A DNA stretch of 64,000 nucleotides from an uncultured bacterium. GTDB taxonomy: Bacteria > Bacillota > Clostridia > Lachnospirales > Lachnospiraceae. The translations under genes and the position numbers were made by a program. Position 1 is the stretch's first letter, and every line of letters begins with the position of its first letter. The stretch is from contig CANCXX010000018.1 of assembly GCA_947381965.1 (NCBI GenBank), forward strand, positions 19,334 to 83,333. Reading direction: 5' to 3'. Of this stretch, positions 9,835 to 14,277 are shown piece by piece. Under the pieces are notes generated by a model, which saw only the letters and a list, made by a program, of their open reading frames with translations, searched no databases and was not told the DNA's origin.

Positions 9835-9863
9835 TTGACAAACAGGAAGTTTTTTGATAAGTT
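9835..9863 (+). promoter_or_regulatory. Candidate promoter of the ABC-F leader
   Basis: A consensus -35 TTGACA (9835-9840) is separated by 17 bases from a weak -10, TAAGTT (9858-9863). It begins just after the araD stop and would start transcription about 20 bases before the leader peptide's ribosome site. Confidence 0.6.
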
Positions 9864-9893
9864 AAAAACAGTAAATGTAAAGGAGATGTGTGG

Positions 9894-9917
9894 ATGTTTA
9901 TTTTTTCTGCAAAATAA
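9894..9917 (+). CDS. Seven-codon leader peptide MFIFSAK
   Basis: A short reading frame, ATG to TAA, encodes MFIFSAK. It has a good ribosome site, AGGAG at 9881-9885, eight bases before the ATG, and stands alone between a promoter and a terminator ahead of two antibiotic-protection ABC-F genes. Leader peptides of this kind let a drug-stalled ribosome prevent attenuation of Erm, Cfr and ABC-F genes. That translation controls the downstream genes is an inference here. The first arm of a hairpin (9893-9901) overlaps its start codon. Confidence 0.65.
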   Translation: MFIFSAK

Positions 9918-10076
9918 CTAATTTCATAAGTTGTGTGTAGAAGATAAACATCTGTTTTTATTTTAATATAATCTATATATTTGTTCGTAATTTCCATAAG
10001 TTAATTCTTAAATGAATTGTATAATTATGGGAATAAAGCAGTAATAATGAAAGGCTGCTTTGTGACAGGGTATTTT

Positions 10077-10107
10077 AGGTGCAGAAGTTTTCTTCTGCAC
10101 CTTTTTG
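10077..10107 (+). terminator. Intrinsic terminator within the ABC-F leader
   Basis: A 10-bp perfect stem with loop GTTTTC, followed by TTTTGTG, lies 78 bases upstream of the ABC-F start codon on the same strand. It could end either upstream araD transcription or, as attenuator, the leader transcript. Confidence 0.85.
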
Positions 10108-10184
10108 TGTTCAAAATTTTTTTACAGGCAGCGAGTTAAGTAAAGTAAAACAGTGTTTTTATATAAAAGTGGAGGAAAAAAGAT

Positions 10185-11762
10185 ATGTCACAAATCAGCG
10201 TAAATAATCTAACTTTTTATTATGAAGGCAGCTATGATAATATTTTTGAAAATGTAACTTTTCAAATTGATACGGATTGGAAATTAGGATTTGTAGCCAG
10301 AAATGGGAGGGGAAAAACTACTTTTCTTAAGCTATTGACAGGACAGTATGAATATCAGGGAAAAATAAGCTCTTCTGTTACTTTTGATTATTTTCCTTTT
10401 GAAGTTGGAGACAAGAGCAAAAACACCATTGATGTCATTGAAAGAATCTACCCGGATTATGAATTTTGGAAGATATGCAGGGAGCTTAATCTTTTAAGTA
10501 TGGATATGGAAATACTTTACAGACCCTTTTCAACGTTAAGCAATGGTGAACAGACCAGAGTAATGCTGGCATTGCTTTTTTCAAAAGAAAATCATTTTCT
10601 TTTGATTGACGAACCTACAAATCACCTGGATATGGAATGCAGAGAAACTTTAAAGGAGTATTTGAAAAATAAGAAAAGCTTTATTTTAGTATCTCATGAC
10701 AGAAATTTTCTGGATGGCTGTGTAAATCATATTTTAGTTATTAACAAGACAAATATAGAAGTGCAACAGGGAAATTTCAGTTCCTGGTGGGAAAATAAAA
10801 AAAGACAGGATGCTTTTGAATTTGCAGAAAACGAAAGACTGAAAAAAGATATTAAGAGACTTACGGAATCTGCAAGAAAAACAAAACAATGGGCTGATAA
10901 TGTAGAGGCAACAAAGATTGGTGCAGGGTCAGAAAAATATGAAAAATGTATTGATAGCAGAGCATACATTGGTGAAAAATCACGCAGAATGCAGATGAGG
11001 CGCAAAAATCTGGAAAGAAGACAACAAAGGGAGATAGAAGAAAAATCCGGACTTTTAAAGAACCTGGAAACAGCAGAAGATTTAAAGATTGTGACTTTAA
11101 AGCACTATAAAGAAAAAATAGCAGTGATGGAAAACTGTACAATTGCTTATAAAAATAGCAATTTTGGACATGAGAGAACCCTAAATAATCAAAAGGAAAT
11201 TGTAAATGGATTTAATCTTGAGATAAAACAGGGAGACAGAGTTTTTTTAAATGGGCGTAATGGATGCGGTAAGTCCAGTATATTAAAATGTATATTAGGA
11301 ACATTGTTGGAAAAGAAAGAAAACATCAACAATTCCTGTTTATCAGAAGGATCATTTCCGATTTTGCAAGAAGGAAGAATTGAAATTCCAAATCAGCTTA
11401 TTATTTCTTATTGCTCTCAGGATACTTCTATGCTTGGAGGGACATTAAGAGAATATGCCGTGAAAAATGAAATTGATGAAACTTTGTTTTTGACACTGCT
11501 TAGAAAATTGGATTTTTCCAGAATACAATTCGAGAAAAGAATAGAAGATTATAGTGGAGGACAGAAGAAGAAAGTCCTGCTTGCCGGAAGCTTATGTACA
11601 AAGGCTCATTTATATATTTGGGATGAACCGCTTAATTTTATTGATGTGTTTTCAAGGATGCAGATAGAAGAATTAATATTAAAGTTTAAACCAACTATGC
11701 TGCTTGTTGAGCATGATAAGAAATTTATGGAAAATGTTGCCACCCGTATTATAAATATTTAA
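10185..11762 (+). CDS. ABC-F ribosomal protection protein (Lsa/Vga-like), copy 1
   Basis: Soluble ATPase with two ABC domains and no membrane segment, 525 residues. The N-terminus (MSQISVNNLTFYYEGSYDNI) resembles the Lsa/Vga group of ABC-F proteins, which bind the ribosomal E site and dislodge lincosamides, pleuromutilins and streptogramin A. NBD1 has Walker A RNGRGKTT, signature LSNGEQ and Walker B LLIDEPTNHLD; a charged linker, the antibiotic-resistance domain, spans about 190-300; NBD2 has NGRNGCGKSS, SGGQKKK and WDEPLNFID. GGAGG lies nine bases before the ATG. It sits behind an attenuator and 59 bases before a second ABC-F gene. The drug spectrum cannot be predicted, and a housekeeping ABC-F role is the alternative. 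Confidence 0.87.
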   Translation: MSQISVNNLTFYYEGSYDNIFENVTFQIDTDWKLGFVARNGRGKTTFLKLLTGQYEYQGKISSSVTFDYFPFEVGDKSKNTIDVIERIYPDYEFWKICRELNLLSMDMEILYRPFSTLSNGEQTRVMLALLFSKENHFLLIDEPTNHLDMECRETLKEYLKNKKSFILVSHDRNFLDGCVNHILVINKTNIEVQQGNFSSWWENKKRQDAFEFAENERLKKDIKRLTESARKTKQWADNVEATKIGAGSEKYEKCIDSRAYIGEKSRRMQMRRKNLERRQQREIEEKSGLLKNLETAEDLKIVTLKHYKEKIAVMENCTIAYKNSNFGHERTLNNQKEIVNGFNLEIKQGDRVFLNGRNGCGKSSILKCILGTLLEKKENINNSCLSEGSFPILQEGRIEIPNQLIISYCSQDTSMLGGTLREYAVKNEIDETLFLTLLRKLDFSRIQFEKRIEDYSGGQKKKVLLAGSLCTKAHLYIWDEPLNFIDVFSRMQIEELILKFKPTMLLVEHDKKFMENVATRIINI

Positions 11763-11821: not shown

Positions 11822-13369
11822 ATGGGCAAGATAATATTTGAAAAGGTTGATTTTTATTATCCGGAAATATATTCACCAGTTTTTGAAAAAGTTTCAATTT
11901 CTGTTGATACAAAGTGGAGGCTTGGCCTTATTGGACGCAATGGACGTGGAAAGACAACTTTACTTAAACTTATCACCGGGGAATTAACTCAGACAAGCGG
12001 AAAAATTAAAAGAGATGTTGACGTTGAGTATTTTCCATATCAATACTTTGGAAATGTCAAAATAACTTTAAATGTTATTAAAGAATGTATTGGTGGATTA
12101 TATAGTCTGGAGCAACATTTAGATGATTCTTCCGCACTGGAAAAGTATATGGAACTGGATGGATTTAGTGTTGAAGGAAAAATAAGAAAAGAGGCAGGAA
12201 AAATTGGATTAAAGTATAACATACTTGACAGGGAATTTGAAACGCTATCCAGTGGTGAAAGGACGAAAGCATTAATTATTTCATTGTTTTTAAAGCAAAA
12301 TACATTTATTTTGCTTGATGAACCTACCAATCATCTGGATGTCCATGGAAAAGAAGAATTAAAAAATTACTTAAAAAAAAAGCAGGGATTTATTCTTGTG
12401 TCCCATGACAGAGCCTTTCTTGACAGTGTGACGGACCATATACTTTCTATTAATAAAGCAGACATAACCATAGAAAAAGGTAATTATACCACTTGGGAAA
12501 ATAATAAAACAATTGTTGAGGAATATGAGAGGAGGACAAGCGAAAATCTGCAGCATGAGATTGCCAGAATGGAAAGTAATATTGTACAGAAAAAAAACTG
12601 GGCAGATGTTTCAAATAAGCAGAAATATCATTTTGCTTCAAATAGCAGGACTGGCGGAGTTCAGGCATACCAGGGACAGGCAAAAAGAAGTGAATTAAAA
12701 ATAAGAAAAGATATAGAGGAAAAAAAGAAGCTGCTTAGAAACTATGAAGAAAGCAGAAATCTGGAATTTGAACAGGAGGAAAAAGAGGGATGGCTGATAA
12801 AAGTAGATAATTTAAATTTTTCGTATATAAGAGAAGAAAAGCTGATAAAGAATCTGTCTTTGGAAGTAAAAGAGCATGATACAGTATTGATACAGGGAAA
12901 AAATGGAAGTGGAAAAAGTACGCTTTTAAAATTGATTACCGGTAAAATTGTTCATCCATCTATAAGCTATAATGGAAATATTATTTTTTCAGTTCTTCCA
13001 CAGGAAATAGATATGGAAAACTGCCATAATGGAAGAGAATTTTTAAAGTCGAAGTTGGATGATGAAAAAGAATATATAAGCAGTATGCAGGTATGTGAAA
13101 TGTTTGATATTACAGAAGAACTGTTAGAGAAGCCATGTGATACCTACAGCAGCGGGGAAAAGAAGAAAATATATCTTGCAAAGGTTTTAAGCAGGCGGAA
13201 CCATATAATTGTTTTGGATGAACCGTTAAATTATATGGATAATATGTTCCGTAAACAAATTTTAAGAGCATTTAAGATGCTCCGGCCAACGGTTTTGCTG
13301 ATAGAACATGATAGTTTCTTTTTGCAGAATCTGGCTACAGTAATTGTAAATTTGGATGAACAAAAATAA
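11822..13369 (+). CDS. ABC-F ribosomal protection protein (Lsa/Vga-like), copy 2
   Basis: Second two-domain ABC-F ATPase, 515 residues. NBD1 has GRNGRGKTTLLK, signature LSSGERTK and LLDEPTNHLD; NBD2 has GKNGSGKSTLLK, SSGEKKK and VLDEPLNYMD. The linker (about 195-300) is Lys/Glu-rich, with KNWADVSNKQKYHFAS. It shares the layout, and clearly related N-terminal and Walker regions, with the preceding gene, so the pair looks like an old tandem duplication that has diverged. AAGGAGG lies before the ATG. It ends 11 bases before a strong terminator. The two proteins may protect against different drugs or act at different ribosomal states; the sequence does not tell. Confidence 0.87.
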   Translation: MGKIIFEKVDFYYPEIYSPVFEKVSISVDTKWRLGLIGRNGRGKTTLLKLITGELTQTSGKIKRDVDVEYFPYQYFGNVKITLNVIKECIGGLYSLEQHLDDSSALEKYMELDGFSVEGKIRKEAGKIGLKYNILDREFETLSSGERTKALIISLFLKQNTFILLDEPTNHLDVHGKEELKNYLKKKQGFILVSHDRAFLDSVTDHILSINKADITIEKGNYTTWENNKTIVEEYERRTSENLQHEIARMESNIVQKKNWADVSNKQKYHFASNSRTGGVQAYQGQAKRSELKIRKDIEEKKKLLRNYEESRNLEFEQEEKEGWLIKVDNLNFSYIREEKLIKNLSLEVKEHDTVLIQGKNGSGKSTLLKLITGKIVHPSISYNGNIIFSVLPQEIDMENCHNGREFLKSKLDDEKEYISSMQVCEMFDITEELLEKPCDTYSSGEKKKIYLAKVLSRRNHIIVLDEPLNYMDNMFRKQILRAFKMLRPTVLLIEHDSFFLQNLATVIVNLDEQK

Positions 13370-13422: not shown

Positions 13423-14277
13423 TCATTTCTTTTTCTTTTTTTCTGCCACAAGCAGATCATGATAAAAATAATTTTTATAAGCTATATTTTTTTGCTTACA
13501 ATAACTGTCTATTTCATCAGACAATTGATGCCAGTATTCAATATTCTTTCTATTATATATTTCTTTGTATCCATTTAAGTATTTTGGATATTTTTCAGAT
13601 ATGTATGCCAGTATTTTTTGCTTATAATCTCCACGTAAATTTAAGTTTTCAAACCAGTATTCACATATAAATTCGGATGTTGCATCTACAATTTTCTTAA
13701 AATCTGTTATATATGGAAAAATTGGAGACATAAATAAAACAGTATAAATTCCCTGTTTCCGTAATTCCTTTAAAGCAGCAATCCGCTGTGTAATACTACT
13801 GGCATTATCCATATCATTTTGGAAAGTATTATCCAATGTATTAACAGACATTGCAACTGTTAAGTTTTTCATTTCTTTCAGAATATCAATATCCCTTAAA
13901 ATCAAATCTGACTTAGTTGAAAGAGTAATAAAACAATCTGCCTGTTTAAGCTGGTTTAAAATATTTTTTGTAATCTCATATTTTTCTTCAACAGGATTAT
14001 AACAATCTGTTACAGAAGACATAAAAACAGATTTATGATATAATTTTTTGGTATTAATAGGTTTATCACATCGTTTGATATCAATAAAATTTCCCCATTC
14101 TTCCGTATGTCCTGTAAACCGTTTCATAAATCGGGCATAACAATATTTACAGGCATGGGGACAGCCGATATATGGATTGATGACATAATCACTGGCAGGC
14201 AGATTTGATTTTGTAAGCAAATCTTTGGTTAGAATTTCTTTTTCAATTAAGTTCAAAAAGGCACCTCTTATAATCAT
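13423..14277 (-). CDS. SPL-family radical SAM protein
   Basis: Radical S-adenosylmethionine enzyme, 284 residues. The iron-sulfur cluster motif is Cys39-x3-Cys43-x2-Cys46 in GCPHACKYCYARF, the form found in the spore photoproduct lyase-like (SPL) family. It lacks the extra N-terminal domain of true SplB, so it is a relative, not a confirmed spore photoproduct lyase. The start codon overlaps the stop of the EndoQ-UvrD gene by four bases (ATGA), which implies translational coupling and a shared task, plausibly DNA repair. The C-terminus is lysine-rich. Its substrate is unknown. Confidence 0.82.
   Translation of the reverse strand: MIIRGAFLNLIEKEILTKDLLTKSNLPASDYVINPYIGCPHACKYCYARFMKRFTGHTEEWGNFIDIKRCDKPINTKKLYHKSVFMSSVTDCYNPVEEKYEITKNILNQLKQADCFITLSTKSDLILRDIDILKEMKNLTVAMSVNTLDNTFQNDMDNASSITQRIAALKELRKQGIYTVLFMSPIFPYITDFKKIVDATSEFICEYWFENLNLRGDYKQKILAYISEKYPKYLNGYKEIYNRKNIEYWHQLSDEIDSYCKQKNIAYKNYFYHDLLVAEKKKKK

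Follow-up and report, generated by a model that had tools for sequence, protein, structure and literature searches.

A conserved leader ahead of Lsa-like ABC-F genes in Lachnospiraceae has the features of a ribosome-operated transcription attenuator

The window analyzed here, a stretch of 64,000 nucleotides from an uncultured member of the Lachnospiraceae, carries two ABC-F genes, probably conferring antibiotic resistance, on its plus strand, the strand of all features below unless stated otherwise. The first, ABC-F 1 (10185 to 11762), encodes a ribosome-protection protein of 525 amino acids whose best solved relative is Lsa(A) (7nhk, 7.4e-122), and the second, ABC-F 2 (11822 to 13369), a protein of 515 amino acids. 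Since both pass the 380-bit cut-off of the generic ABC-F protection profile NF000355 (430.8 and 383.1 bits) and neither reaches the 750-bit Lsa cut-off of NCBIfam NF000167 (659.8 and 390.9 bits), both are called Lsa-like and, by this rule, not Lsa. Also in the window, on the minus strand at 13423 to 14277, lies a gene for a radical SAM protein near “mobile pair protein B” (it scores 321.9 bits where the cut-off is 410), which adjoins a long frame of 1,076 codons. The original prediction placed tandem ABC-F genes under a common leader; two such genes are indeed present in the window, but the second was not seen beside ABC-F 1 in the other loci compared. Among 124 records, some of them short downstream, only this genome has ABC-F 2 directly behind ABC-F 1, while L031 has a distant ABC-F (26%) behind ABC-F 1. 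ABC-F 2 may have arrived separately.

Upstream of these genes, the sequence and the predicted fold bear out the order of elements described originally, that is, a promoter, a short frame inside a stem, a middle hairpin, and an intrinsic terminator. The promoter begins 3 nt behind the end of araD (9831) and consists of TTGACA (9835 to 9840), a 17-nt spacer, and TAAGTT (9858 to 9863), a −10 hexamer that matches the consensus at 3 of 6 positions and is preceded by TGA; a consensus promoter and terminator scan of the window did not list it. Twelve of the 14 genus loci inspected likewise carry TTGACA followed after 17 nt by a hexamer (which was located, not scored), 59 to 61 nt 5′ of the leader ATG in 10 of the 12 and 92 nt in two. 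The seven-codon frame MFIFSAK (ATG TTT ATT TTT TCT GCA AAA TAA, 9894 to 9917) reads as predicted, and its Shine-Dalgarno sequence, AAAGGAG (9879 to 9885), stands 8 nt ahead of the ATG. RNA from 9866 to 10110 folds with −68.7 kcal/mol (z −6.1; 0 of 200 shuffles equally stable) into a leader stem that encloses the frame (P1, 9892 to 9953), hairpins at 9992 to 10032 and 10033 to 10063, and the terminator (10077 to 10102). The latter has arms at 10077 to 10087 and 10092 to 10102, a loop at 10088 to 10091, and a T run extending to 10106, and it has the most pairs of the three sites that the scan listed, a number not above chance (2.3 expected). It ends about 70 nt upstream of the Shine-Dalgarno sequence of ABC-F 1 (GGAGG, 10171 to 10175). 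The predicted middle hairpin at 10033 to 10063 does appear in the fold, but comparison by letters with 13 genus loci, in which the middle part is 56 to 194 nt long, gave no counterpart, and it was therefore rejected as a conserved part of the leader.

The stem around the start codon and leader is shared by relatives within the genus. In an alignment of 12 of the 16 genus loci (L099 and L100 were left out for an insertion, L107 and L112 as near copies), 86.0% of the P1 cells are paired, versus 44.6 to 56.1% with slid partners. This proportion was reached by 3 of 500 shuffles, the covariation score, a check proposed with the original prediction, by 7 of 500, and the nine cells with both sides changed by 11 of 500; in the same 12 sequences, pairs with both sides changed and pair types were no more numerous than in the shuffles, 165 and 429 of 500 of which, respectively, reached the observed values. 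A covariance model built from the 12 sequences and searched at E 0.01 gave one match per genome in 16 of 37 genus genomes, of which 12 had supplied the model and, among the remaining four, G040 and G041 are divergent. All matches lie ahead of an ABC-F gene, and the same 16 genomes carry ABC-F 1 at 72 to 79% identity (100% in the window's own genome). At the DNA level, 9836 to 10200 matches 8 of 40 relatives, mainly over query positions 1 to 149 (promoter to leader) and 236 to 273 (terminator), one relative genome aligning over 1 to 271 at 64%. We consider this sequence conservation a stronger argument for the leader than the promoter and terminator scan. Rfam, at gathering score, gave no match in the leader (its only matches in the window are two tRNAs) and none in the upstream regions of 15 relatives, and RNAalifold of 33 clade C leaders returned seven nearly invariant pairs with zero both-side changes. 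Across 13 genus loci, the leader's Shine-Dalgarno sequence and start codon are partly paired in the free stem (medians of 0.67 and 1.0), a sign that the decision may fall to the first ribosome. By eye, L099 and L100 have before ABC-F 1 an extra hairpin, CTTTCTAAG...CTTAGAAAAG, within the 3′ strand of the leader stem, both flanking halves of which are retained.

For a broader comparison, relatives were taken as the best 80 of 566 from a genome scan (nearest relatives) plus the genus genomes, 23 of 37 of which have a match at E 1e-100. The resulting 123 upstream regions, minus eight (two further copies of the window's own region and six regions of other genes) and with identical cores collapsed, left 98 loci. 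The recurring plan has four segments in order: the leader codons (segment 1, within the leader frame and up to 9911 in the window), their complement downstream (segment 2), and the two arms of the terminator (segments 3 and 4). Segment 2 resembles the left arm, and segment 1 resembles segment 4. In the window, the core of segment 2 is GTGTAGAAGA (9935 to 9944), the predicted antiterminator strand, and its predicted partner is TCTTCTGCAC (10091 to 10100), the last loop base plus right arm. The same roles are taken in other Lachnospiraceae by GCAGGAATAAT with terminators such as GGTGCGGAAA.TTA.TTTCTGCACC, and in Paenibacillus, Desulfosporosinus, and others by GCAAGAAAGTTAC with terminators such as GAGCTGCAAGAAAG.TAA.CTTTCTTGCAGCTT; in loci of the latter type, the terminator loop is also complementary to segment 2.

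The start codon keeps a narrow distance from segment 1. An ATG with a Shine-Dalgarno sequence lies 12 to 23 nt before the segment 1 end in 56 of the 66 loci with an anchored segment 1, other 6-nt bins holding at most 3 such ATGs each; this is the unbiased spacing figure, as the leader caller admitted 13 to 24 nt only. Leaders were called in 75 of the 98 loci (23 had none), with one codon in 15, two in nine, five in six, six in 25, seven in 13, and eight in four; three, eleven, and nineteen codons occur once each, the last two (L117 and L080) being judged spurious. The one-codon frames, an ATG followed by a stop, belong to records whose titles name Paenibacillus, Cohnella, or Bacillus sp. FJAT. 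The leaders called share no amino acid besides the initiator Met, nor did they contain a codon run for a regulated amino acid, as in amino-acid attenuators, or a conserved arrest peptide, as in MsrDL, the credible leaders ranging from M alone to eight residues. By analogy with the toeprint at 16 given for vmlR, a ribosome at the start codon would cover about 15 nt downstream, which corresponds to segment 1. Given a spacing to segment 1 that suits one ribosome footprint in leaders of one to eight codons, the peptide seems unimportant and is probably not itself the thing sensed; we infer that sensing is done by the initiating ribosome.

Alternatively, stalling could be peptide specific, as with MYLIFM of MsrDL, and P1 with the U-rich tract behind it could be a terminator that the stalled ribosome opens. 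The motif M[FY].FS, conserved in the genus only, occurs in 15 of its 16 leaders (L110 included), GTTTTTATTTT comes next 3′ of P1 in the window, paralogues in the genus have MRR* leaders in a terminator-like stem, and the stalled ribosome of msrD is described as obstructing a terminator (PMC10314930). However, the same arrangement occurs with other peptides (MIIISC and MDISC) or with a single codon in the 15 AUG-stop frames, and the U tract begins some nucleotides past the stem in most genus members (judged by eye, unscored). Conservation of M[FY].FS would, we infer, largely reflect pairing, and we regard peptide-specific stalling as unlikely. An attenuator answering to amino acid supply or general translation stress (slow Phe or Ile codons, or a shortage of initiator) instead of a drug would agree with the two Phe codons of the window's leader, and any delay of a ribosome at the start codon works alike in the switch model developed below. 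Yet the leaders share nothing but the initiator Met, and within the genus the leader stem stands only ahead of an ABC-F gene, a point on which the nongenus loci are uninformative because they were fetched by their ABC-F gene; such a stress sensor appears very improbable.

In the original prediction, the antiterminator was a pairing of the leader codons with the left arm of the terminator (1:3), with the position of the ribosome deciding whether it forms. The complementarity itself is exact over 7 nt, as claimed (TTCTGCA at 9905 to 9911 and TGCAGAA at 10080 to 10086), but its duplex energy in the window is −9.9 kcal/mol versus −14.7 kcal/mol for the pairing of segment 2 with segment 4 (2:4). 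Both were scored, ungapped over 13 letters, within and across three clades in 58 loci (13, 8, and 37). For 2:4, the own-locus scores are 10.1, 10.6, and 11.9 of 13 in the three clades, versus 7.6 to 8.2 across clades, while those for 1:3 are 8.2, 7.4, and 8.5, versus 7.2 to 8.6. The corresponding values for 1:2 are 10.1, 10.3, and 9.7, versus 6.4 to 8.8; as segment 1 had itself been selected for the best match to segment 2, the own-locus score is inflated. The comparison omits L099 and L122 and, of the 73 loci with segments, the 15 that belong to none of the three clades. Segment 2 is misassigned in L108, and segment 1 lies away from the called leader in three or more of the 58 loci (L104, L036, and L058 among them), which blurs the 1:3 score too. 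In columns 4, 7, 8, 9, 10, and 11 of 2:4 (counted from 0), both sides differ between clades, with changes that include G-C to A-T and A-T to T-A; at columns 8 to 12, some loci of the genus and some of the second clade do not pair.

Shuffling separated the two pairings in the same direction. Upstream sequence against loop plus right arm, the 2:4 side, gave a median z of −2.44, and in 48 of 79 loci at most 5 of 100 shuffles were as good; against left arm plus loop, the 1:3 side, the median z was +0.25, and 3 of 79 loci reached that level. The terminator cores for this test were listed after inspection of the terminators, and the 79 loci are those of the 98 with a terminator of recognized kind; two of the remaining 19, L110 and L032, plainly carry one that escaped the scorer. 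The terminator assigned to L099 is wrong.

Folding simulations connect these pairings with the position of the ribosome. The RNA-DNA hybrid in RNA polymerase spans 8 to 9 bp, and on this basis RNA ending at 10096 to 10100 was taken as approximately what lies outside a polymerase halted on the U tract. At these lengths, the free RNA of the window forms P1 and the terminator (0.36 to 0.79) and no 2:4, whereas blocking 9880 to 9909 leaves the terminator at 0.001 to 0.028 and yields 9.5 to 13.3 expected 2:4 pairs. When the RNA is longer, the terminator returns despite the start-codon footprint (0.94 at 10102, 0.96 at 10106, and 0.86 at 10112; a longer footprint gave 0.47 at 10112), which means that the switch can only be kinetic. 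Across 68 loci (L099, L122, L117, and L080 were left out), a footprint at the leader start with 24 nt of 5′ context lowered the terminator by more than 0.3 and formed an alternative pairing in 57, where the pairing counted as 2:4 is that of any strand between footprint and terminator and not of segment 2 alone; with 60 nt of 5′ context, the terminator fell by more than 0.3 in 51. Control footprints had this effect in 1 locus upstream of the Shine-Dalgarno sequence, in 0 just before the terminator, and in 6 on segment 2, and with segment 2 shuffled the leader footprint lowered the terminator in 5 of 68. Of the 11 loci that fail with 24 nt of context, eight (L102, L104, L018, L019, L027, L029, L054, and L062) retain the terminator, and three (L043, L044, and L063) form little of it even in the free RNA.

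The 1:3 pairing reached 3 expected pairs in 0 of these 68 loci. With its weaker duplex, its lack of specificity across loci, and its scores near shuffle level, it was rejected as the antiterminator; P1 is nearer and stronger (−21.9 kcal/mol), and a stalled ribosome would hide segment 1. For all the exact complementarity in the window, we therefore give the 1:3 antiterminator only a slight chance. The original prediction thus stands in part: the kind of element, an attenuator made of leader, stem, and terminator before an ABC-F gene, is supported, and the pairing it named is not. That all this is a constitutive promoter followed by an ordinary terminator with chance pairings, which the end of araD so close to TTGACA might favor, is barely credible beside a leader that accompanies the ABC-F gene, a clade-specific 2:4, and a conserved leader geometry.

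From sequence comparison and modeling, the probable reading is a ribosome-operated transcription attenuator with a 2:4 antiterminator and sensing at the start codon, an assignment we hold with good confidence. Without drug, the leader ribosome would finish, P1 (1:2) would form as the predicted anti-antiterminator, the terminator hairpin (3:4) would follow, and transcription would stop before the ABC-F genes. A drug that blocks the peptidyl transferase center, expected from the Lsa-like type to be a pleuromutilin, lincosamide, or streptogramin A, would hold the ribosome at the leader start codon, where its footprint over segment 1 would keep P1 from forming. Free segment 2 could then take the terminator loop and right arm as these leave the polymerase, so that 3:4 would come late and transcription would continue into the ABC-F genes. 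With the start codon as the sensing point, peptide and frame length would be free to vary.

Whether this extends to a Bacillota-wide attenuator family, with a sensor that needs only a start codon, a spacing of one footprint, AUG-stop frames as a possible form, an antiterminator directed at the loop and descending arm, and a race instead of an equilibrium, we judge about evenly balanced. If true, it would reveal how gut and soil Bacillota keep their intrinsic resistance genes silent and how drugs that halt ribosomes at start codons switch these genes on, and natural one-codon frames would be the smallest possible drug sensors. An antiterminator aimed at loop and descending arm also makes a specific, testable claim about when in transcription the decision falls. 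For searches, the suggested rule is a start codon 15 to 20 nt before the end of a segment that pairs with the antiterminator strand, which could find leaders where peptide conservation fails.

The kind of element is known, and the published descriptions accessible to us include attenuators of vmlR, cplR, msrD, are5sc, and tiaA, in line with the earlier statement that drug stalling at short ABC-F leaders has precedent. The locus shares with this class a short upstream frame that, with its ribosome site, lies at or within a 5′ stem, an intrinsic terminator between frame and gene, and, in silico, a mutually exclusive antiterminator freed when the frame is occupied. Among the closest parallels is vmlR of Bacillus subtilis, described (PMC9226507) as having a short frame (MIN) enclosed by a first stem with the role of anti-antiterminator, an intrinsic terminator behind it, an antiterminator freed by lincomycin stalling, and frame variants MDN and MDK that work at least as well; our leader has the same parts, the freed antiterminator being predicted. 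Going by that published description, it differs in peptide and layout, and vmlR also has a pause hairpin and a stem that sequesters the Shine-Dalgarno sequence (PMC9226507). Similarly short frames, MR[I/M], MK[L/Q], and MAGN, precede the cplR (Clostridioides difficile), VmlR2, and LsaA genes, ABC-F genes of similar spectrum (PMC10201436). There, cplR likewise has a hairpin over its frame and a terminator, but this terminator sequesters the gene's Shine-Dalgarno sequence (PMC10201436), whereas ours ends well before it, and the LsaA consensus MAGN is absent among the leaders called here. The are5sc and tiaA frames of Streptomyces are also ribosome-mediated attenuators, for which toeprints showed that lincosamides, streptogramin A, and pleuromutilin stall the ribosome at the start codon, but belong to another phylum and have the leaders MLV and MVGDDDISG (PMC12421871). 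Finally, msrD is likewise an ABC-F gene with a short leader and under transcription attenuation, but is described as relying on macrolide arrest that depends on its leader peptide (PMC10314930). Neither leaders of this sequence nor one-codon frames ahead of ABC-F genes turned up in the openly available passages reached by full-text search or in a search of structured-RNA surveys by term. Within the literature so covered, the locus is a conserved regulatory leader of known kind whose sequences, arrangement, and one-codon forms were not encountered.

Acquired plasmid Lsa genes were read at four places among the 40 records listed of 170 that matched. The gene in Paenibacillus urinalis has the leader plan, which was not seen upstream of lsa(E), lsa(B), or the Enterococcus raffinosus gene; some 190 nt separate lsa(E) from the end of an IS1216 transposase gene upstream of it. 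Other kinds of leader were observed as well. ABC-F paralogues of the genus (L115 to L119, L122, and L123) have a leader MRR* in a stem, several of these stems being terminator-like (AGAGAGG...CCTCTCTTTTTT), and in L116, L117, L119, and L123 the loop of a later hairpin, TTTGGCAAC, is complementary to GTTGCCAAA, a match broken in L118; pairing of upstream sequence with the terminator had no support in the shuffle test for these MRR* leaders. A third kind, in L080, L084, L114, and L172, is marked by a THD/THE-x-L motif, exemplified by MVLELDVTHELLRISRYNLSNIYGVI upstream of lsa(B), and a following CCGACTTTGT, and CCGACTTTG also occurs upstream of lsa(E). In the Paenibacillus-type loci L042, L048, L049, L064, L069, and L075, another shared stretch (like GTAGATGTTTATGTGAACCTGTC) replaces the leader.
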